Part shown: positions 15,182 through 28,893 of the stretch, in pieces
Layout: every line of letters starts with the position of its first letter
How positions within the stretch are numbered: position 1 is the stretch's first letter
Source: Verrucomicrobiota bacterium
Lineage (GTDB): Bacteria; Verrucomicrobiota; Verrucomicrobiia; Limisphaerales; J093
Assembly: GCA_027493615.1 (NCBI GenBank)
Contig: JAOSKK010000023.1
Location: 124,001-188,000 of the forward strand
Direction of reading: 5' to 3'
Length of the DNA stretch: 64,000 nt
Made by a program: the position numbers and the translations under genes
Notes under the pieces: model-generated
The model's input: the letters and a program-made list of their open reading frames with translations, nothing else
Databases searched by the model: none
Told to the model about the DNA's origin: nothing

Positions 15182-17238
15182 CTACCGGGCAATCCCCCAA
15201 GGGCTGAAGATCACGTAGAAAAGCAACACGATGGCAATCACCGCGAACCCCGCCACCCGGGCGCGGCCGCAGGACTCCAGGGCGATCGTCGTTCGGGCCT
15301 GGAAGACGACCGGTTGCGGCAGCGGGCGCAGCAGGGTCATCGCGGTCATGACCGCCAGGCACAGCACAAAGCAGATGGCCATCGCGTTCAGGAACTGCAC
15401 TTGCGGCACGAACAGCATGAGGAAGCCGTAGCCCACCATGTTCGTAAGCAGGCCCACGGTGCCGCAAGCCGGCGGGGCGCGCCGCACCAGCAGGCCGAAG
15501 GCAAACACCGCCAGGATGCCGGGCGACACGAACCCCTGGCCGGCCTGGATGATCGTGAAAATGCTGTTGCTGATCTTCGGGTTGCCGAGTTGCGGAGCCA
15601 GCAGCACGGCCACGACGGCAAAGCCCACCACGGCCATCCGCCCCACCAGCACCACGCGGTCCTGGCCCGCCTGCGGCGCAAGGTACTTCCGGTACACGTC
15701 CATCGAGAAAATGGTCGAGGCGGCGTTGAGCATGGCAGCCAGCGAACTCACCACCGCCCCCAGCAGCGCCGCGAGCACAAAACCCACCAGCCCGTACCCC
15801 TGCGGCAACACGTTCCCCAGCAGTTGCGCCAGCGCCGTGTCGTACTTGTACGAAATCAGCTTCTCGCTCGCAATCGGCTGGCCCGCCACGGCCGCGTTCA
15901 CCTTGACCGTGTCGTTGAACGCGGCCACCTCGGCGGCCAGGCCCGGATTCACATTGGCCCACGCCCGGTCCTCGGCCACAAAGACCGCAAAAGGCGCCGG
16001 CGCCAGCGCCTTGAACCGGTCCTGCGTCAAGGGCAGAACGAACGGATGCCGGACTCTCGCCTCCTGCAGGGCCCGCTCGCTCGGGTAAATCGCCAGCAAA
16101 TACCGCCCCGCGGGCCACGCCGCCACCCGCTCCGCCGCCGGTGCCATCTCGGTCTCGACGAACTGTGTCTGCGGATTCGCCTTGAGGTACCGCGCCAGCG
16201 CCGTGGCCTTGTCCGCCGACGCCTCAATCCGCATGTCGTTCGAGTAGAGATTGAACGCGATGATCCCCGGGATCACGATCACGAACGGAATCAGCAGCTT
16301 CATGAACGCCGCGAACACGATCCCCGCTGCCCCTGCGCCAGCGACGCCGAGCCCAGCGTCCGTTGCGTGATGTACTGGTTCAGCCCCAATAGTAGAAGTT
16401 CGGAATCCACAACCCCAGCAACAGCGCCGTCCACGGCAACACCGGATCGTCCGCCGGCAGGAACATGTTCAGCCGGCTGCGATTCAGCTCCATGAACCGC
16501 TCGAACGCACCACTCTCCGCCGCCAGCGTCCGCACTTCGACCGCCCCCGTCTGCGCGCTCACCACCATGGCCGCTTCGGTCGCCCCGCCAAGCTGTTGGA
16601 ACGCGCAGAACATGATCACCGCCCCGCCCACGATCAGGGCGCTGCCCTGGATCAAATCCGCCCAGGCGCAAGCCTTGAGTCCGCCGGCCGTCACGTACGC
16701 CATCGCAATCAGGCCGATGATGAGCGAACCCTGCGCCAGGGTGAGATGATGACCGGCCTTCCCCGCAAGACTGCTCAAGGTCAGGGCCCCGGAGTACGTC
16801 ACGGCCCCCCAGCAGCAGCAGATAGATCAGCATCGTGGCCACCGCCATGATCGTCCGCGCGGAGGCGTTGTACCGGTACTCGAGGAACTCGGGCATCGTG
16901 TAAATGCCCGCGCGCAGGAAATACGGCAGGAACGCAAAGGCCACCACCACCAGCGTGACCGCCGCCATCCACTCGTAGCTCGCGATGGCCAATCCCACAT
17001 GACTCGCCGCGTTCCCGCTCATCCCGACAAACTGCTCGGTCGAGATGTTCGCCGCGATAAGCGAAAAACCGATCAGCCACCACTTCAGACCGCGCCCCGC
17101 CAGGAAGTAGTCCTCGCTCCCCTTCTCATGCCGGCTCTGGACCAACCCCACCGTGACCACGGCAGCCACAAAGACCACGAAAACGAGAACGTCCGGTCGG
17201 GTGATGGTGAACGAGGCCAGCATGGTTGCGGAGAGCAT
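15182..17238 (-). CDS. Sodium:solute symporter (SSS family, SGLT-like), frameshifted three times
   Basis: Inner-membrane Na+-coupled sugar transporter. The N-terminal part carries SEDYFLAGRGLKWWLIGFSL and ANISTEQFVGMSG, typical of SGLT-like SSS proteins. The middle (TYSGALTLSSLAGKAG, GGLKACAWADLIQG, LLGLWIPNFYYWG, LNQYITQRTLGS) and the end (FMKLLIPFVIVIPGIIAFNL and following helices) are each in other frames. One-base changes in the runs at 16805-16810, 16384-16387 and 16322-16325 restore one frame of about 680 residues. A start at 17238 or 17223 is possible. It is followed by galM, so a sugar substrate is likely. Confidence 0.88.
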
Positions 17239-18194: not shown

Positions 18195-18974
18195 ATGAAC
18201 TCGCTGCCGTGCCTCCTGCCCACCGCGTGCCTCGCCGCGTGCCTGCTGTCGCTCACCAGCACCGCCGCCCCCCAGGTCGGCGTTGGTACCAGACCCGTCC
18301 CGGGAGCCGAACTGATTTTCGATGGCTCCCGCCAGATGCTCGACGAGAAATGGACATACTGGGAAGGACCCGGTTTCGCCTCCTCCCTGCCGATCAAGTG
18401 GCGTTTGGTCGATGACCCCGTCGATGGGGGCAAGGTCCTCTCGACCCTCGAACCCGCCGCCGCCGGCGGCAAGTACGGAGCCGCTGACCTCGTCACCAAG
18501 AAGGCCTACCGTGACTTCCGCCTGCACATCGAGTTCCTCGTCATGGAACCCGGCGGCAACAGTGGCGTGTACCTCCAGAACCGCTACGAAATCCAGGTGC
18601 TCGACGGCGACCGCACCAAGCATGGCATGGGCGCGATCATCAACGAGACCGAATCCCCCTACCACGCCTACCACGGCGTCGGGAAGTGGAACGCCTACGA
18701 CCTGGTCTTTCGCGCCGCCCGTTTCCGCGACGGGCGCCGCGTCGAACCGGCCCGGGTCACGATGTACTTCAACGGCCAGAAGGTTCACACGAACGTGCCC
18801 ATCAACCAGGTCTGGGGCGGTCCCAATTCCGGTATCGATGGCGGCAACGACGGCGGCAAAGGCATCACCGACACCCCCGGCGGCCTCAAGCTCCAGGCCG
18901 AAGGCCACGACGTCCGCTACCGCAACATCTGGATCAAGGAACTCGATCTGCTCGCGCCGAATACGGACTTCTGA
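18195..18974 (+). CDS. Secreted DUF1080 (3-keto-disaccharide hydrolase-like) protein
   Basis: Exported protein of 259 residues with a signal peptide ending around TSTAA (24). It has the DUF1080 beta-sandwich, seen in ELIFDGSRQM, KKAYRDFRLHIEFLV, NSGVYLQNRYEIQVLD, HGMGAIIN and VRYRNIWIKEL. Members are concanavalin-like and some hydrolyse 3-keto-glycosides; the activity here is inferred from the family. It is very common in Verrucomicrobia, where it often accompanies exported Gfo/Idh/MocA proteins, though none adjoins it here. Its 3' end overlaps the convergent GT2 gene by 41 nt. Confidence 0.9.
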   Translation: MNSLPCLLPTACLAACLLSLTSTAAPQVGVGTRPVPGAELIFDGSRQMLDEKWTYWEGPGFASSLPIKWRLVDDPVDGGKVLSTLEPAAAGGKYGAADLVTKKAYRDFRLHIEFLVMEPGGNSGVYLQNRYEIQVLDGDRTKHGMGAIINETESPYHAYHGVGKWNAYDLVFRAARFRDGRRVEPARVTMYFNGQKVHTNVPINQVWGGPNSGIDGGNDGGKGITDTPGGLKLQAEGHDVRYRNIWIKELDLLAPNTDF

Positions 18975-19770
18975 GTTCCGCCGCCCGGCGAACCATCGCT
19001 CGCCTTCCTCCGGCGGACCGGCGCAGCCGCCAGACCCCAGCCAGGTCGGCGCGAATCGTCCGGAACAGCCGAACACGGCTGTCGGGGTCATCGACCCAGC
19101 GGACCGGGATCTCGGCGATGCGCCAGCCCTGCTGCTGGGCCAGGGCCAACAATTCGGTGTCGAAGAAGAAGCCCCGGTCCTCCACTTGCGGCAACAGCGC
19201 CCGCGCCGCCGCCCGCGACAGCGCCTTGAAGCCGCATTGCGCATCGTGAGTGCGCAGGCCGAGCACGCGCCGGAGCAGTTGGTTGTAGCAACGGCTGATC
19301 CACTCCCGCTTCCAACCACGCGTCGTCTGTGACGCCGGCAACAACCGTGAGCCAATGGCCAGGTCCGCCTCCCCTTCGAGAATGACCCGGATGAGCTCGG
19401 GCAAGTGCGCGAGATCCGTCGAGAGATCGATGTCCATGTAGCTGACCACGTCGGCGTCGGTGCCCAGCCAGGCCGTCTTCAGGGCCTCCCCGCGCCCCGG
19501 CTGCGGGAGGTGGATTGTGCGGAGGGACAGCCCGCAGGGGGCTGGGTCGGTATCGGCAAGACGACGCGCGGCTGATCCGGTGCGATCCACGGCCCGAGCC
19601 ACCCGCTGGGCCTCGGCAAAGGTGCCGTCCGTCGAGCCATTGTCCGCCATCACCAGTTCCCATCGCCATTGGGACAGTTGGTCGAGGACGACCATGAGCC
19701 TGGCCGTGCTGAGGGCCAATTGCGCGACCTCGTTGAACACCGGCAACGTGAGGTTGACCCACGGACGCAT
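18934..19770 (-). CDS. Family 2 glycosyltransferase (polyprenyl-phosphate sugar synthase-like)
   Basis: Probably transfers a sugar to a polyprenyl phosphate at the cytoplasmic face, like DPG/dolichyl-phosphate glucose synthases. It shows the GT2 start VNLTLPVFNEVAQL, MADNGSTDGTF, the metal/nucleotide site VSYMDIDLSTDL, IGSRLLP and the family-typical LRTHDAQCGFKALSR and FFFDTELLALA. ATG 19770 is preferred because it follows the upstream stop by 4 nt. It ends a leftward six-gene operon. With the GT-C-like gene upstream it forms a classic donor-synthase plus transferase pair. Length 278 residues. Confidence 0.88.
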   Translation of the reverse strand: MRPWVNLTLPVFNEVAQLALSTARLMVVLDQLSQWRWELVMADNGSTDGTFAEAQRVARAVDRTGSAARRLADTDPAPCGLSLRTIHLPQPGRGEALKTAWLGTDADVVSYMDIDLSTDLAHLPELIRVILEGEADLAIGSRLLPASQTTRGWKREWISRCYNQLLRRVLGLRTHDAQCGFKALSRAAARALLPQVEDRGFFFDTELLALAQQQGWRIAEIPVRWVDDPDSRVRLFRTIRADLAGVWRLRRSAGGRRAMVRRAAELRSPYSARADRVP

Positions 19771-19774
19771 GGGT

Positions 19775-21286
19775 TCACCTCCACGCGTCGGACCTGCCAG
19801 ATGCACGCCATCCCCACACTAGGCCCGCCACCAGCAGACCGGCGTACAGCCCGGCAGCGACCCCGGGTGGGAACCCGCACAGGACCGACAAGGCGTTGTA
19901 CGTGAACTCCCCGCGCAGCAATCTCGGGATGTGAAGCTCGGACAAGGGCACCGCCACGTCGTAAACCGGGCACGCATCCGTCACGGTGGCCAACGTAACC
20001 ATGCCAACCGAGAGCGCGGCGAGCACGGCGCCGAGGGTGGGCCAGCGCTGCATCCCAAGAGCACACGGCAGAGCAACCAGCGGGAGGATCGGCGAGAGGT
20101 AACGCGCACTGAGCGTATACCCCGCCTGCCAATCCCAAGTGCGGCCGGAGATCACCACGACCTGCAAGAGGGGAACCACATACGTGAGCCACAGCCAGGC
20201 CGGTCGCTCCCGCGCCATCCACACCCAGCCCAAACCCGCCAGGAGGAGGAACGGGGTCCAAAACACGAGCCCGCGGGTCGGGCCGAACAACAACCGCAGC
20301 AGGTTCTCGAGGTCAGGCCATTGGATGGCGTACAGACCCTCGGCCATCTCGGGAAAACTGGCCTGGTAGCTGTAGGGGAGCTCCCAGGGGACGCCGACGG
20401 TGGCCCAACTGTACGCGGGGACCAGGAGGAGCGGCGGCACAACGCCCACCAGAAACCAGAGCCCCCCGCGCCGGCGTTGCCAGATCACGAAAAGCCCGAG
20501 AGCAACGACCACCAGGCCGGCGGTGTACTCGCTGGCCAGGCTCAGCCCCAGGCACCCACCCGCCAGACCATGGCGCCAGCCAGGAAGCCGGATCGGCTCG
20601 GCCGCCATTGGCTTCTCGGTTGGCCGCGACGTCGGATCATCGCCCGAGCGCCGAGGCGGCGGGTCTTCGAACAGAGCCAACGCCCAAAGGGCGACACTGA
20701 TGAGGCCGATGGTCTGCGCGTGACTGAAGAGCATTGTCGAGTACGGCAGCGGCAGCGAACCGAGCCACAGCGCCATGACCGCCACCCAGGCCGCCCGCGC
20801 CCGGACCAACCGCCCCAGCCAGATCCAAAGGAGGCACCCGCCCAGCGCCGCCGGTAGCGCCTGCGACGCGGCACACGCTACCCAACTTCCCGCCAGCCAG
20901 ACGGTCCGATCAACGCCGTCCGGTCGGACTTGCTGGACGATCTCGTGAGCCAGCCAGAACCCGGGCAACGCCACCACCACCGTGCCCGGAGCTTTGTCCG
21001 AGTAGTAATGCCCCGCGTGCCATGCCTTGTCGGGCGTGTTCTCATGATAGGGATCAATCGCCAGCGTCCCGTGCCGAACGATCGCGAACAACAGGTCGAG
21101 TCGTGAAGCCGGCGTGGGACCATCGAATCGCTCCTGGTGGATCGAGCCCAGCACCGCCACCAGCCAGATTCCCAGGACCCAAGCCAGCCGCGTGCTCCCC
21201 CCACACGGCTCACCCCGCCCGGTCCACCGGCACGGCTCCGGACGCGCCGACCGCGCCGGGCTAGTGTTGACTTGCCCCGTTTCCAT
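19775..21286 (-). CDS. Polytopic GT-C/PMT-like membrane glycosyltransferase
   Basis: About ten hydrophobic segments in roughly 500 residues. The first periplasmic loop has the acidic, tyrosine-rich stretch IDPYHENTPDKAWHAGHYYS and DKAPGT, as in GT39/PMT-like GT-C enzymes that use polyprenyl-phosphate sugars. A later basic loop holds a WPFLE-like WPDLENLL segment. I start at 21286, which overlaps the MauE-like gene by 26 nt; the frame is open to 21346. It is followed after 4 nt by the GT2 gene. The acceptor is unknown; a secreted product of the same operon is a fair guess. Confidence 0.7.
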   Translation of the reverse strand: METGQVNTSPARSARPEPCRWTGRGEPCGGSTRLAWVLGIWLVAVLGSIHQERFDGPTPASRLDLLFAIVRHGTLAIDPYHENTPDKAWHAGHYYSDKAPGTVVVALPGFWLAHEIVQQVRPDGVDRTVWLAGSWVACAASQALPAALGGCLLWIWLGRLVRARAAWVAVMALWLGSLPLPYSTMLFSHAQTIGLISVALWALALFEDPPPRRSGDDPTSRPTEKPMAAEPIRLPGWRHGLAGGCLGLSLASEYTAGLVVVALGLFVIWQRRRGGLWFLVGVVPPLLLVPAYSWATVGVPWELPYSYQASFPEMAEGLYAIQWPDLENLLRLLFGPTRGLVFWTPFLLLAGLGWVWMARERPAWLWLTYVVPLLQVVVISGRTWDWQAGYTLSARYLSPILPLVALPCALGMQRWPTLGAVLAALSVGMVTLATVTDACPVYDVAVPLSELHIPRLLRGEFTYNALSVLCGFPPGVAAGLYAGLLVAGLVWGWRASGRSDAWR

Positions 21287-21811
21287 CCGACCGGTCGCCG
21301 GGCGTTGCCGCGGGCGTGGAACGACCGGCCACCCGTGGTCGGCCATGCCACGCCAGCCCGAGGTAACTTCCCACCAGGAAGTAGGCGATCATTGCCGTGA
21401 CTATGAACTCGTACGTCCAGCCCGGCATCGACGCCCCGCCACCGGGCACACCTAGACATCCACAAGACGACGGGGCGGGGCTCAGCCACAACCCAACGTG
21501 ATACGACGCGAACAGACCTCCGACCCAGGCCACCACGGCCAGACGGTGGCGTCGGTCGGGCAGCAGCAGAACCAGACTCACCACCGCCAACTCGAACAGC
21601 CCCGCCACGAACATGACCTGACCATTTGTCAGACCCCCGATCCAGGGCGCCTGCCGGGCCAGCGGAATGCCCGACGCGCCGCTCGCCCCGGCTCCCAGCG
21701 CCTGGAAGACGCTGAAGCCCTTCAGCCGGCCGTGACCAGGAGGAGGCCGATGACCGTCGCCAGGAAACCGTCGGTCCCCCGCCATTTCCATGTCAGCGCG
21801 CCGAAGTGCAT
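21261..21811 (-). CDS. MauE/DoxX-like redox membrane protein, frameshifted
   Basis: Four-helix inner-membrane protein of about 183 residues. The ATG at 21811 gives MHFGALTWKWRGTDGFLATV followed by IGLLLVTAG. The frame then changes near 21726, where one C seems missing from the plus-strand run, and continues LKGFSVFQALGAG to the end. The CGCLG motif before the last helix is characteristic of MauE-like proteins, which are linked to disulfide formation in secreted cysteine-rich partners. It sits between a Cys-rich secreted protein cluster and a GT-C-like gene, 42 nt downstream of the membrane-anchored protein. Confidence 0.7.
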
Positions 21812-21853
21812 CAGGTCGGATCAGGTCGCGTCCACACAGGACTTCGAAAACGC

Positions 21854-23139
21854 TCAGCGCCGCGCGGGAGCCGGTGGGGCAGGCTTGGCGCGGCGGAGCA
21901 GCAGCGCCGGGACGACCAGCAGAGCCGTACAGACGCCAAGGGCAAGCAACACCTTCGGCCATCGCGGTTTCCCTGGCAGCAGGCCGGCTTCGGCAACGGC
22001 CGCTCCCGCGGGATTGTGCACCAGCTCAGCGACACCTTGCCCGGTGCTGGCCGCCACGACGTAACGCTCGGGGAACTCGGGGCAAAGGTCGGCCAGGCGG
22101 CGAACTCCCCGGCCGGGTCCACCCAATCGTAGATGACCTGCCGCTGCACCCGGCGGCCGTCCTCTCCGGTCGTCTCGGTCGTCCAGAGGCGCGGCCAACC
22201 GGAAACGTCCACCCTCGCGCTCGGAAACCAGGGAGGGCCCCTTGGGTCCAGACAACGCGATCCGCAGCAGGCGGTCCGGATCGGTACGGTCCGCCCAATA
22301 CTGCACGCGGAGGGCCGGTCTCCGGGAACCCCCGCGCCGGGTGAGGTCGAAACAGCGTACGCCCTGGTCCCCCCACTTCAACTCCGTGACCTCGAGGCGG
22401 AACGCAGCGTGGGTTCCCTCGGCCAAGCGGGAGACCTGGGCGCGATCCAGCGAGATCCCCAAAGCCGCCCAGGGCCGGATCGGGGAAGGGTCGCTCGGGG
22501 CGACCAGCGCGTTCGTGCTCCCCACGGCCGCCAAGAGCGGGAGCACCAGTGGCGGTTCCAGGGTGTAACCTTCCCAGAGAGGATCCAGTGGAACCTGGCT
22601 GGCCTCGATCGGGTAGAGGGTGGCCGATTCCAGGGTGTGATTGGCGATGAACGCCATCACGTTCGTGAAGCTGGGGTCCGCGATCCGGACGTAGCTGCGC
22701 CGGCTCGGAAGGGGCACCGAAGTCCATACCTCGTCTTTGCGGTAGAGCTCCCCCGCCAGCCAGACCTCGACCTCGAACGTGCTGGTGCCCGGAGTGGGCC
22801 TGGCGGACGCCTTCACGGCGCAGCGCGGCGAGCTGACGCTGCTGGGCGGCGGTCAGACCCCGGTCATGCGTGCGCGAAGCTTGTTCCTGCCGACGGATTT
22901 CCTCGCCGATTTGCCGCTCGGTCCAGGCGGGGGGTGCGGATTTCGACGCGGGCGCGGAAGTGGCAGCGCGCAGGGGCCGGCCGCGTCACCCGGACGAACA
23001 GCGCGGTGATTTCCTGCAGCGTGGCACGCCGGGGATTCGCACCCTCGGTCGCAGCCGCTTCCGCGGCACGGACCGGCCAGCCAAGGCCAAGGACGACCGC
23101 GAGCATCGTGGGCAGAGAAGGACGCAGCATGGGAGCCAT
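21854..23139 (-). CDS. Unknown exported protein with C-terminal membrane anchor, multiply frameshifted
   Basis: No family recognised. A signal peptide (MLRPSLPTMLAVVLGLGWPV) starts near 23139/23130. The coding frame then changes at least four times: near 22930, near 22825, near 22212 and near 22100. Recognisable stretches are TERQIGEEIRRQEQASRTHD, FEVEVWLAGELYRKDEVWTS, YVRIADPSFTNVMAFIANHT, WPRLWTTETTGEDGRRVQRQ and VIYDWVDPAG. The end is one hydrophobic helix (WPKVLLALGVCTALLVVPAL) with a basic tail, so the body is probably periplasmic. Joined length is about 425 residues. It sits between the Cys-rich protein and the MauE-like gene. Confidence 0.6.
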
Positions 23140-23198
23140 GAGTCGGTGGTTGCAGAGCGGATGAAGGACCTCGGCGGGCTTCACGACTTCCTCGCATG

Positions 23199-23728
23199 TC
23201 AGGGGAGCTCGAGCCGATCGGGGCATCCGCGACCCCACGGATCCTCCGGATGAACCTTGAGACCGTAGAGGGGGTGCGGGTGCCCTCGACACAGTAGCGG
23301 ATACCGCAGCCGAAACACTCCTTGCTCATCGTGGCCAGACATCCCAGACACCCCGGCCCGGTCGGGGCGATGGCACAGGCGTACGCACACGTCGCCCCTC
23401 CCAACAGGTAGCAGTACGTCCACTTGGTCCAGTTGACCGCCGTCGAACAGGTGGCATCCCACCCCACTTCGGCGGACCGGTTCCGGCAGATCCAGTAACC
23501 GCTGGGGGCCGGGGCACAGAAGTAGTAACCGTCCGTGTGGTAGCTGCGTGAGTCACACGTGCCGTCGGTTCCCGCAGGGTGGTTCCGGCACTGGCACCGG
23601 AAGTCTTCCGCACAACGGTACTGCAGTCGGAAGCAACTCCCGGAGGCCTGGATGTTCTGGAGGCAAACCCCAAGACCGAGGGTGACGGCGAGCGCAACCG
23701 TGAGGGCGTTCGTGAGCTGGCTTTTCAT
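23199..23728 (-). CDS. Secreted cysteine-rich protein, frameshifted near its end
   Basis: Novel-looking exported protein. A signal peptide MKSQLTNALTVALAVTLGLG is followed by about 150 residues with some 17 cysteines, for example CAEDFRCQCR, CAYACAIAPTGPGCLGC and ECFGCGIRYC, plus many aromatic residues. Adding one base to the 5-nt run at 23270-23274 moves the frame to TPLYGLKVHPEDPWGRGC, ending at a stop at 23199; without it the frame runs on for 100 meaningless residues. The cysteine spacing matches no family I know. Even cysteine distribution suggests disulfides or a metal site. It lies 46 nt after a pseudopilin gene. Confidence 0.65.
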
Positions 23729-23774
23729 GGGTAGTCAGGTGCTTGTGTTTGGCATGATCCGGACAGGCTCGGCC

Positions 23775-24579
23775 TCAGGGTTCTTTCGCGAGGACGGGGC
23801 CGCCCAAAGTGTGTTGCTGCAATCGAAGAAGGTCTTCCCGGTCGGCGGGTGACTCGGCCGGCTTCCAGTAACTCGGCCGTGGCGTGAATCGTTTCGGGTG
23901 TTGCCACTTCCAGCGCTCGCCGTGCCCATCCACGAAAGAGAACACCCCGGTCTGCGCGTGGCGGTCCGCGGGCAGGTTCACCCAGCGGCGGTCGGGAGCC
24001 GGCCACACCAGGAAGTGCGCATCATCGATCGAGTCCGCAGCCTCGTCTACGAAGCCGAAGAGCCGGGCCGGGTCGGTCACCGCAGCGAGACGCTCCACAG
24101 TCCGCTGCCGCTCGGCGGTGCGGCCGCCCAGATTGCCGTTCAGGGACACGCTCCGGGTGCGGCGCCGGTTCAGCGGCTGACCGGCGAGCGGGCGGGCAGT
24201 GGACCGGTCCGCCGGGCAGACGTAAAGGGCCACCGCGCGGTTGTAGCCGTATGCGAACCACAGACCTTGCTGGATGGGGCGCGCGTCGCGGTCATGGGGG
24301 GCGTTGCTCAAGCCAATCCAGGAATCGGGTGCGCTCCGCCAGTGTCCCTCGACGAGTTGGGCGCGATTCGGCGGCACGCTCCCCGCGGAAGTCATCGACG
24401 TACAACTGCCAGGCGACTTGAAGCTGCCGGAGGTTGGCGAGGCAGATCGTGCCGCTCGCCTTGGCCCCGGCTCGGCTCGCCGCGGCCAACAGCAACCCCG
24501 CCAGGAGCCCGACGACCGCGAGCACCGCCAGCACCTCGAGCAGGGTGAACGCCCCGGGCGCCGGGCTCTTGAAGTGCAT
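23775..24579 (-). CDS. Type II secretion-like pseudopilin, frameshifted; first gene of the Cys-rich operon
   Basis: The start MHFKSPAPG/AFTLLEVLAVL has the prepilin processing site with Glu at +5 and a long hydrophobic helix, then NLRQLQVAWQLYVDDFRG. Removing one base from the 4-nt run at 24381-24384 joins this to SVPPNRAQLVEGHWRSAPDS, CPADRST and FSFVDGHGERWKWQ of the H-X9-DG type. It is the promoter-proximal gene of the leftward operon and is divergent from the WPFYG-repeat gene across 215 nt. Its presence here may mean surface delivery of the following Cys-rich product, which is speculative. Confidence 0.8.
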
Positions 24580-26403: not shown

Positions 26404-27150
26404 ATGTTTCAGGACATCGGTGAAATCCTGCTCCTGCTGGGGCGCACCCTGCGGGCGCTGCCGCACACTCTCCGGCAACAACGGAAGGTGTGCGATCAGC
26501 TCTTCGAAATTGGCAACGCAAGCCTGCTGATGGCCTGCGTACTCGCGCTGTTCATCGGCGGCGTGCTCGCCCTTCAGACCGGGCCCACGCTGGCCGAGCG
26601 GGGCCTGCAGAGCTTCATCGGCCAGCTCGTGGGCCTGGCCGTCTGCCGCGAACTTGCCCCCGTGATGATGGCCGTGCTGATCGCCGGCCGCATCGGCTCG
26701 GCCATGGCCGCCGAGATCGGCTCGATGCGCGTCTACCAGGAGATCGATGCCCTGCGGACGATGAACATCAACCCGGTGCATTACCTGGTGCTGCCGCGCC
26801 TGATTGCCATCAGTATCGGGCTGCCGGTGCTCGTGCTCTTCGCGATCCTCGTCGGCTGGATGGGAGGGGCGGTCGTCTCCTTCTTCAATCAGGCGATCGC
26901 GGTCTCGTTTGAGGGCTACTTCAACAGCCTGCGCCAGGGCCTCGAACCGTTGGATGTCGTAAACGGCCTCCTCAAGAGCTTCGTGTTCGCCGTGGTCATC
27001 GGTGTGGTCTCCTGCCATCAGGGCCTCAGCACGATCGGGGGCCCCCGCGGCATCGGGCGCTCGGTCACCAAGGCCGTCGTCAACTCCATCGTCCTCATCC
27101 TGCTCCTGGACTATTTCCTGACGCGGATCCTGATGCACCTGCACACATGA
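26404..27150 (+). CDS. mlaE: Mla-type ABC transporter permease
   Basis: Inner-membrane permease of the MlaFEDB-type lipid transporter, which moves phospholipids between the inner and outer membranes. The 248 residues include the conserved ALQTGPTLAERG-like start, CRELAPVMMAVLIAGRIGSA, AAEIGSMRVYQEIDALRTMN and five helices ending in VNSIVLILLLDYFLT. The ATPase and MCE genes follow with 1-nt spacing and a 4-nt overlap, so all three form an operon. Confidence 0.95.
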   Translation: MFQDIGEILLLLGRTLRALPHTLRQQRKVCDQLFEIGNASLLMACVLALFIGGVLALQTGPTLAERGLQSFIGQLVGLAVCRELAPVMMAVLIAGRIGSAMAAEIGSMRVYQEIDALRTMNINPVHYLVLPRLIAISIGLPVLVLFAILVGWMGGAVVSFFNQAIAVSFEGYFNSLRQGLEPLDVVNGLLKSFVFAVVIGVVSCHQGLSTIGGPRGIGRSVTKAVVNSIVLILLLDYFLTRILMHLHT

Positions 27151-27151
27151 G

Positions 27152-27919
27152 ATGAACGCCCCCGCCTCCCAAGGCATCGGCCTCCAGGTCCGTGACCTGT
27201 GCAAGAGCTACGACGGCCACGCCGTGCTCAAGCACCTCACCTTCGAAGTCCCAGCGGGCGAGATCTTCGTCCTCATGGGCCCAAGCGGCAGCGGCAAGAC
27301 CGTCCTTCTCAAACACCTCATCGGCCTCGAATCCCCTGACACCGGCGACATCCTCGTGGCCGGCCAGCCCGTCAGCGACCCCGGCGTCATGACCCGCTAC
27401 CGGGTCGCCATGGTTTTCCAGTCCGGCGCCCTGCTGAATTCGCTGACCGTCGGCGAGAACGTCGGCCTCTACCTGAGCGAGCACCGTCTCAAGCCGCCCG
27501 CCGAGATCGCCCGCGTGGTCGCCGAGAAGCTCGAACTCCTCGGCCTCAAGGGCACCGCCGACAAGATCCCCGCCGAACTCTCCGGCGGCATGAAGAAGCG
27601 CGTCGCCATCGCCCGCGCCCTGGTCGTCGAACCCCAGTTGATCTTCTACGACGAGCCCACCAGCGAACTCGACCCCCTCATCGCGGTCACCATCGGCCGG
27701 GAGATCCTCAACCTCAACCGACGCCTGCAGGTGACCAGCATCGTCGTCACCCACGACCGCGACCTCGCCTTCGGCATCGCCGACCGCGTGGCCCTGCTGC
27801 ACGAGGGCGAGATCCTCGCCCTGGGCACACCGGACGAGGTCCAGGCCGACCCCAACCCCCTCGTGCAACGCTTTCTCAAAGCCGACTTCCGTTTCACCCC
27901 TGAACCCGCGCTCCCATGA
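27152..27919 (+). CDS. mlaF: Mla-type ABC transporter ATP-binding protein
   Basis: ATPase powering the lipid transporter at the cytoplasmic face. Of 255 residues, Walker A is GPSGSGKT (43-50), the Q-loop glutamine is in VFQSGAL (90), the signature is LSGGM (143-147), Walker B is LIFYDEPT (163-170) and the switch histidine is in VVTHD. The sequence SGALLNSLTVGENV and the LSGGMKKRVAIARAL block are typical of MlaF rather than of general importers. Its start follows the mlaE stop by 1 nt and its stop overlaps mlaD by ATGA. Confidence 0.96.
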   Translation: MNAPASQGIGLQVRDLCKSYDGHAVLKHLTFEVPAGEIFVLMGPSGSGKTVLLKHLIGLESPDTGDILVAGQPVSDPGVMTRYRVAMVFQSGALLNSLTVGENVGLYLSEHRLKPPAEIARVVAEKLELLGLKGTADKIPAELSGGMKKRVAIARALVVEPQLIFYDEPTSELDPLIAVTIGREILNLNRRLQVTSIVVTHDRDLAFGIADRVALLHEGEILALGTPDEVQADPNPLVQRFLKADFRFTPEPALP

Positions 27920-28893
27920 GAAACACCCTCGAAACCCGCCTCGGCATCTTCTTCGCCCTCGCCGTCATCGTCGGGGCCCTCATCCTCGAAACCATCGGCA
28001 GCCTCGACTTCTTCCGCCGCGGCCGCACCGTCAGCGCCCGGTTCGACAACATCCTCGAACTCAAGGTCGGCGACGGGGTCAAGATGGCCGGCAAAGCCAT
28101 CGGCCGCGTCACCGCCATCGAGTTCGCCGATTCGAAGGTGCTCGTCGCGATGAAGATCACCGACCCCACGGCCGTCATCCGCACCGACAGCCGGGCCACG
28201 ATCAAGTTCAGCGGGCTCATGGGCCAGAACTACGTCGCCATCGACTTCGGCCCCGGCAAAGGCGCCCTCATCGACGCGACCGGCACCGAACTCGAGAGCT
28301 ACGCCCAACCGGACCTCAACGTGCTCCTCTCCCGCCTCGAAGGCGCCACCAGCGGCATCCAGAAGCTCACCGACAGCTTCAGCGACTCGAGTCTCAGCGA
28401 CGTTCTCCTGCCCTTCACCGACTTCCTCAACGAGAGCAAGCCGCGCATCCTGAACGTGCTCACCAACGCCGAACGCATCTCCGCCCAGGTGGCCGCCGGC
28501 GAGGGCACCGTGGGCAAGCTCATCTACGAGGACGCCCTCTACAGCGCCGCCCTCAGCACCGTCACCAACCTCAGCGCCACCGCCGATGACGTCCGCCATC
28601 TGGTCAGCGATGCCCAGGCCACGGTCGCCGACGTCCGCGCCGGCAAGGGCACCGTGGGCCGCCTGATGACCGATGAAACCCTCTTCTCCGAGGTCACCGA
28701 GGCTGCCACCAACCTTCGGGAGGTCATGCAGAAGATCAACCGCGGCCAGGGCACGGTGGGCAAGGCGATCAACGACGACACCCTCATCAACAACGCCAAG
28801 CTCACCCTCCAGAAGCTCGACAAAGCCACCGAAGGCCTCGAAGACCAGGGCCCTCTCACCGTCCTCGGCATCCTCGTCAACCCGCTGTTCTGA
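27916..28893 (+). CDS. mlaD: MCE/MlaD-family lipid-binding protein
   Basis: Membrane-anchored MCE protein that forms the periplasmic lipid-binding ring of the transporter. One N-terminal helix (LGIFFALAVIVGALILETIG) is followed by the MCE domain at about 40-120, with VSARFDNILELKVGDGVKMA and GKAIGRVTAIEF. A long helical C-terminal part follows, with GEGTVGKLI, GKGTVGRLM and GQGTVGKAI repeats. At 325 residues it is longer than E. coli MlaD (183) and resembles MCE proteins with long alpha-helical tails that may span the periplasm. No mlaC or mlaB gene follows. Confidence 0.93.
   Translation: MRNTLETRLGIFFALAVIVGALILETIGSLDFFRRGRTVSARFDNILELKVGDGVKMAGKAIGRVTAIEFADSKVLVAMKITDPTAVIRTDSRATIKFSGLMGQNYVAIDFGPGKGALIDATGTELESYAQPDLNVLLSRLEGATSGIQKLTDSFSDSSLSDVLLPFTDFLNESKPRILNVLTNAERISAQVAAGEGTVGKLIYEDALYSAALSTVTNLSATADDVRHLVSDAQATVADVRAGKGTVGRLMTDETLFSEVTEAATNLREVMQKINRGQGTVGKAINDDTLINNAKLTLQKLDKATEGLEDQGPLTVLGILVNPLF

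Follow-up and report, generated by a model that had tools for sequence, protein, structure and literature searches.

In the mau cluster, a MauE-family membrane protein is linked with an exported, multiply disulfide-bonded partner, namely the light chain of methylamine dehydrogenase (MADH), a small, secreted, Cys-rich protein and the known client of MauE. A second related arrangement was predicted by decRiPPter, which proposed three candidate families in Streptomyces that combine a mauE homologue with a predicted precursor containing at least eight Cys residues; the role of MauE itself is given there as speculated (PMC7794033). Literature searches that combined MauE with Verrucomicrobiota or with secreted Cys-rich proteins turned up this lead only. 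Here, we analyzed a 64,000-nucleotide stretch (the window) from a Verrucomicrobiota genome of the order Limisphaerales (contig JAOSKK010000023.1, positions 124,001 to 188,000), which contains a cluster of six genes for a pseudopilin, a secreted Cys-rich protein, an exported protein, a MauE-like protein, and two putative glycosyltransferases. The cluster is probably, although by no means certainly, one copy of a recurring, modular system of this order that makes disulfide-rich secreted proteins by way of periplasmic maturation involving disulfide formation and glycosylation.

The six genes all lie on the minus strand and span 18934–24579, with five spacings of 46, 59, 42, −26, and 4 nt. Their leftward direction, their order, and every spacing are exactly as given in a first-pass annotation made from the sequence alone, and the 17 Cys residues counted there are those beyond the signal peptide of the secreted protein, which has 18 in all. 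The genes are as follows (G, C, and L numbers are our labels for genomes, contigs, and loci):

23775–24579, minus strand: pseudopilin-like gene with a prepilin N-terminal motif; frame broken near 24381; the intact homologue in G001 has 267 residues.
23199–23728, minus strand: gene for a secreted Cys-rich protein of about 176 residues with a signal peptide and 17 mature Cys, 12 of them conserved in the family; frame broken near 23270.
21854–23139, minus strand: gene for an exported protein of about 425–430 residues with a C-terminal transmembrane (TM) helix and a predicted LolA/LolB/RseB fold; several breaks in the frame.
21261–21811, minus strand: gene for a MauE-like multi-TM protein with a CGCLG motif; frame broken near 21724.
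19775–21286 (frame open to 21346), minus strand: gene for a polytopic GT-C-like protein with an NTPDKA...SDKAPG loop; overlaps the MauE-like gene by 26 nt.
18934–19770, minus strand: gene for a family 2 glycosyltransferase (GT2) resembling dolichyl- or polyprenyl-phosphate-sugar synthases.

While the pairing of a MauE-family protein with a small exported partner is shared with the mau cluster, the candidate client here is non-homologous and has no conserved Trp, no light-chain homologue was found, and the locus adds a LolA-fold partner, GT-C/GT2/GtrA proteins, and a pseudopilin. The likeness to the decRiPPter candidates is that a mauE homologue adjoins a Cys-rich predicted product, both sets being computational predictions. 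However, the present loci belong to another phylum, their products have signal-peptide-like N-termini and the size of proteins (85–190 residues), and they are accompanied by glycosylation genes, a pseudopilin, and a LolA-fold partner. The earlier statement that no such system had been described therefore stands for the gene set as far as searched, but not for the pairing of MauE with a Cys-rich precursor, which had already been predicted in Streptomyces (PMC7794033).

Four of the six frames (pseudopilin, Cys-rich, exported protein, and MauE-like) are interrupted in the window assembly, with indels near 24381, 23270, 22929, 22794, 22212, 22079, and 21724. A 93%-identical contig from the same genus (G001, the metagenome-assembled genome (MAG) Verrucomicrobiales bacterium H5_VER1, JABTUJ010000047) differs at the breaks by one or two bases, mostly in homopolymer runs, and further indels of this kind occur elsewhere in the aligned region, including a sodium/solute-symporter-like gene (16300–17238, minus strand) that is also frameshifted, with indels at 16325–16805. 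All six genes are open in G001 (L028/L006), which was the only source matched in a scan of genome contigs with the single Cys-rich protein; there the Cys-rich protein has 176 residues and the exported protein is in one frame. The frame breaks in the window resemble sequencing errors or very recent damage. Codon comparison between the two genomes gave dN/dS values of 0.11 (0.107) for the Cys-rich gene, 0.18 for the GT2, 0.24 for the pseudopilin, 0.28 for the exported protein, 0.31 for the GT-C-like protein, and 0.34 for the MauE-like protein. All six genes are under purifying selection, the Cys-rich gene most strongly, and are therefore real; these values and the open sister genes in G001 disfavor a pseudogene remnant.

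The Cys-rich proteins are 169–194 residues long, carry a hydrophobic N-terminus that is signal-peptide-like by hydropathy, and keep 12 Cys in nearly all members, the additional Cys residues falling mostly within a hydrophobic, Gly/Ala-rich segment whose hydropathy reaches 2.3. No match was found in Pfam, NCBIfam, or PDB sequences, known bacteriocins and other named Cys-rich families included. The members define a new protein family with 12 conserved cysteines. The disulfide model proposed as a check in the first-pass annotation was attempted, but the AF2 model (pLDDT 55.6) is too poor to give a disulfide pattern. A likeness of the hydrophobic segment to halocin C8 could not be supported.

The same annotation had named a Cys-rich frame without homologues as an outcome that would tell against its proposal. 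The frame is not an orphan: a protein search of 146 relatives gave clear homologues in other families at 30–34% identity, and iterated profiles placed the family in 10 of 320 genomes of the order (E < 1e-14), with nothing convincing outside the order in 388 genomes drawn across the phylum. Open reading frame (ORF) calls were mechanical, and several of the loci are cut off by MAG contig ends. In G076, from another family, all six gene types are present on one strand in a different order, with one frameshift in the exported protein. G281 combines the Cys-rich protein, the exported protein, MauE, a PIG-V GT-C, and an acyltransferase in one locus. In G098, G294, G305, and three loci of G124, the Cys-rich gene is followed directly by that of the exported protein, and in one of the three G124 loci MauE is just upstream of the pair. 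The exported protein is encoded directly downstream of the Cys-rich gene in 10 of 10 loci in which the flank is available; two more family members lie at contig ends. The presence of all six types together in another family and the strong purifying selection on the Cys-rich gene rule out a chance gene cluster.

Assignment of the MauE-like protein depends on profile comparison, as the PF07291 scores in the window (17.8 bits), G001 (20.7), G076 (26.7), and G281 (19.7) are under the cut-off of 27. The window protein aligns to the MauE domains of fusion proteins with a probability of 99.7% (E 1.7e-26), and one such homologous fusion protein, from L132, exceeds the cut-off at 29 bits. A C-x-C-x-G motif and K, E, and Y residues are invariant in 26 sequences of this subclass, and hydropathy indicates several TM segments in its members. 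Relatives of the window protein were not found on viral contigs.

The association of this subclass with Cys-rich proteins extends well beyond the family in the window. A PF07291 search of the 146 relatives, blind to Cys-rich genes, returned strong MauE matches and many weak ones, often several per contig. We took 20 weak-match loci without looking at their neighbors, together with a second locus of the window genome (268 kb in total), and scored as secreted Cys-rich any ORF with a signal-like N-terminus, at least 8 Cys, and at least 4.5% Cys. There were 24 such ORFs, whereas the control loci (234 kb), which had been fetched for other queries and are not random draws, contained one, that of the window itself. 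A same-strand secreted Cys-rich ORF lies within 1.6 kb of 22 of the 33 MauE-like genes of the subclass, and for more than half of the 22 it is no farther than 300 bp away. Strong-class MauE loci contain three such ORFs in 96 kb, and none of 16 MauE-like matches in other orders has a secreted Cys-rich neighbor. The co-occurrence of the two genes in relatives, on which the first-pass proposal had been staked, is hence found far above background across the order.

The Cys-rich proteins at these loci fall into about 28 clusters that are mutually unrelated by BLAST, a few of which are perhaps spurious ORFs. By eye, a Y-x-G-x-C-like stretch in the C-terminal half is common to otherwise unrelated Cys-rich ORFs of L132, L133, L134, L142, L147, and L174, hinting at one fast-diverging Cys-rich superfamily. 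At about eight loci, MauE forms a fusion with an exported domain, mostly TM-anchored at its C-terminus, and in L148 (7208–9190) it is joined to a polytopic region that is GT-C-like by residue pattern and motif only, without a Pfam match.

By sequence, the exported protein matches nothing in the PDB and no family in Pfam. Its G001 homologue, modeled with AF2 (pLDDT 75.5, pTM 0.70), gave a VIA-align list headed by LolA-superfamily entries, with DUF1329 (Z 12.7, root-mean-square deviation 6.0 over 193 residues) followed by LolA3 (Z 12.6), LolB (12.2), LolA (about 10), and RseB (9.2), and Foldseek also returned DUF1329 (E 1.1e-4). It is predicted to be a membrane-anchored half-barrel protein of the LolA/LolB/RseB type. 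In contrast to LolA/LolB and RseB/MucB, it is about twice as long, has a Cys-rich genetic partner, and ends in a TM anchor; the C-terminal TM helix, found in nearly all members of the family, argues against a soluble lipoprotein carrier of the LolA type.

With respect to glycosylation, which the first-pass annotation had read from the GT2 and GT-C pair, the GT2 scores over the PF00535 cut-off (55–59 bits), matches the PDB dolichol-phosphate mannose synthase (DPMS) 5mlz at E 9e-4, and shows weak AglJ/PpgS-type matches under their cut-offs, reaching no equivalog cut-off; judging from these matches, it is related to DPMS. The GT-C-like protein of the window has no Pfam match by itself and no PDB relatives by sequence. 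It is related (1.6e-23) to a protein of L137 that matches the putative glycosyltransferase model NF047440 at 9e-10, below cut-off, whereas other GT-C types at MauE loci score over the PMT_2 or PIG-V cut-off. Candidate glycosylation machinery does recur beside the Cys-rich and MauE genes, in the form of DPMS-like GT2s, GtrA flippases (1e-8 to 4e-26), PMT_2 and PIG-V proteins, and Wzy_C proteins of the O-antigen-ligase type. These resemble the components of polyprenyl-phosphate-sugar protein glycosylation (DPMS, GtrA, PMT/GT-C, PglL-type), but here the genes sit inside Cys-rich protein cassettes. The G001 pseudopilin scores 24.5 bits against TIGR02532 (cut-off 16.3), and pseudopilins number 13 in the 268 kb of loci versus 104 in the 7.6-Mb genome, about three times the genomic density. 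Pseudopilins also occur in other Verrucomicrobiota gene cassettes, such as the Verru_Chthon cassette (TIGR02596, TIGR02599) and the H-X9-DG type; however, the gene set there is different, and the G076 pseudopilin matches those models only far below cut-off.

On the basis of these components, a maturation pathway can be proposed. The Cys-rich protein would be exported through its signal peptide, and the C-x-C-x-G pair of the MauE-like protein may drive disulfide formation in it in the periplasm, as MauE biology, the gene pairing, and the fusions suggest. The anchored LolA-fold partner, given its fold and invariable adjacency, may bind the Cys-rich protein as a dedicated chaperone or holder, probably through the hydrophobic Gly/Ala/Cys central segment. 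The GT2 would make a polyprenyl-phosphate sugar, from which the GT-C protein could transfer the sugar in the periplasm to the Cys-rich protein and/or the pseudopilin. Because the Cys-rich partners are diverse, arranged in arrays, and patchily distributed, the product may, speculatively, face outward as a competition effector or a variable surface component. A broader version of this proposal, which we advance only tentatively, is that a shared periplasmic machinery specific to the order, made up of a MauE oxidase, a membrane-anchored partner with a LolA fold or something similar, lipid-linked-sugar glycosyltransferases, and a pseudopilin, exports and matures many unrelated, fast-diversifying disulfide-rich proteins encoded in interchangeable cassettes.

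Several observations weigh against this reading. All six types are held only by the window/G001 and G076, and several members of the family consist of the Cys-rich and LolA-fold pair alone, which means that cis-encoded MauE and glycosylation genes are no strict requirement. For 11 of the 33 MauE-like genes, no Cys-rich ORF lies on the same strand within 1.6 kb, homology between the MauE-fused exported domain and the LolA-fold protein could not be demonstrated (hhalign probability 6%), the GT-C-like proteins of the window and G076 cannot be aligned by BLAST, and these genomes commonly carry genes for GT-C, GT2, and pseudopilins. The functional unit might comprise the Cys-rich, MauE, and LolA-fold proteins only, with the GT-C, GT2, and pseudopilin genes belonging to neighboring filament or surface-glycan functions that have collected in shared variable islands. 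Pair-only loci without glycosyltransferase and pilin genes would fit such a unit, as would the abundance of pseudopilins in the genome (104), the change of GT-C type from locus to locus, and the composition of an array in G109, where GC content at third codon positions (GC3) is about 0.7 for GtrA/GT-C genes versus 0.4 for MauE, exported, and Cys-rich genes. We nevertheless consider it fairly unlikely, as two distant families each hold all six types, L148 encodes a fusion of MauE to a GT-C-like region, and the C39 locus of the window genome repeats MauE, a Cys-rich protein, a related pseudopilin, and a GT-C-like protein 58% identical to that of the window.

The Cys-rich protein could also be a bacteriocin-like toxin, that is, a disulfide-stabilized, membrane-active antibacterial against which the LolA-fold protein protects the producer, with the other genes serving maturation or delivery. 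Its hydrophobic Gly/Ala-rich center, the roughly 28 unrelated Cys-rich clusters and tandem arrays, and the patchy occurrence of the family are compatible with this idea, and the two-gene cassettes of G294 and G305 and a lone contig-end Cys-rich gene in G017 form AT-rich islands within genomes of higher GC content, which suggests transfer. Yet no bacteriocin family is matched in Pfam or NCBIfam, LolA-fold proteins are carriers or sensors and not known immunity proteins, and such systems do not usually include glycosylation genes or a pseudopilin, which makes a toxin with its immunity protein an unlikely explanation. By far the least probable is an enzyme subunit resembling that of MADH, in which MauE would assist the maturation of a tryptophan-derived cofactor, despite the similar size, secretion, and Cys content of the MADH light chain. 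PF02975, the light-chain family, was not matched when the Cys-rich members were scanned against Pfam with E values up to 10 allowed, a PDB sequence search gave none to MADH chains, and no Trp column is conserved in the 11-sequence alignment, in which the tryptophans that form tryptophan tryptophylquinone were looked for; identity with the MADH light chain is disfavored on these grounds. A PF02975 search of the genomes likewise found nothing, although it was run without a positive control.

Returning to the proposed maturation system, contigs C39 and C36 of the window genome carry at least five further MauE-like genes of the same class, four of them near unrelated secreted Cys-rich ORFs. The C39 locus (G000:C39:80000-99999, L097) contains MauE, a Cys-rich protein, two GT-C-like proteins, each with the identity to the window protein noted above, and a pseudopilin fragment like that of the window. 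Together with the C36 loci (L174 and L175), it forms a set with MauE-like genes, unrelated Cys-rich secreted proteins, GT-C-like proteins, and pseudopilins. The array in the one-contig genome G109 (L132/L133, approximately 2276000–2296000) alternates GtrA, MauE/exported, Cys-rich, and PIG-V-like genes in tandem, the GtrA/GT genes being near-repeated, as if GC-poor cargo had been swapped by recombination between GC-rich genes. AT-rich Cys-rich genes with GC3 of about 0.3–0.4 in GC-richer genomes (L043:2361–4063 and L044:228–1975, both with a LolA-fold partner, and L095:5582–6148) were likely acquired horizontally.

MauE-like proteins are widespread, but hardly any of their clients are known beyond methylamine metabolism. 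The loci described here supply about 20 MauE/client pairs, add a candidate LolA-fold partner, connect disulfide formation in Verrucomicrobiota with protein glycosylation and with pseudopilins in a testable way, and form a reservoir of uncharacterized disulfide-rich proteins. The LolA-fold domain also leads to another group of proteins, as the profile of the exported protein matches the C-terminal part (E 1e-25 to 1e-36) of several proteins of 610–660 residues whose N-terminus is an extracytoplasmic function (ECF)-type sigma factor (Sigma70_r2 and r4). Five of these, with a hydrophobic middle segment and the LolA-fold-homologous C-terminal domain, are encoded at L073:6442–8277, L074:2005–3888, L076:5208–7082, L077:5721–7613, and L078:373–2274. 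They recall the RseB theme and are possibly one-piece transmembrane sigma sensors with an RseB-like ectodomain, and the domain in common suggests what those sensors may bind. Within the window, MlaE-, ABC-, and MlaD-like lipid transport genes lie at 26404–28890 on the plus strand, beyond a divergent gene at 24.8–26.3 kb.

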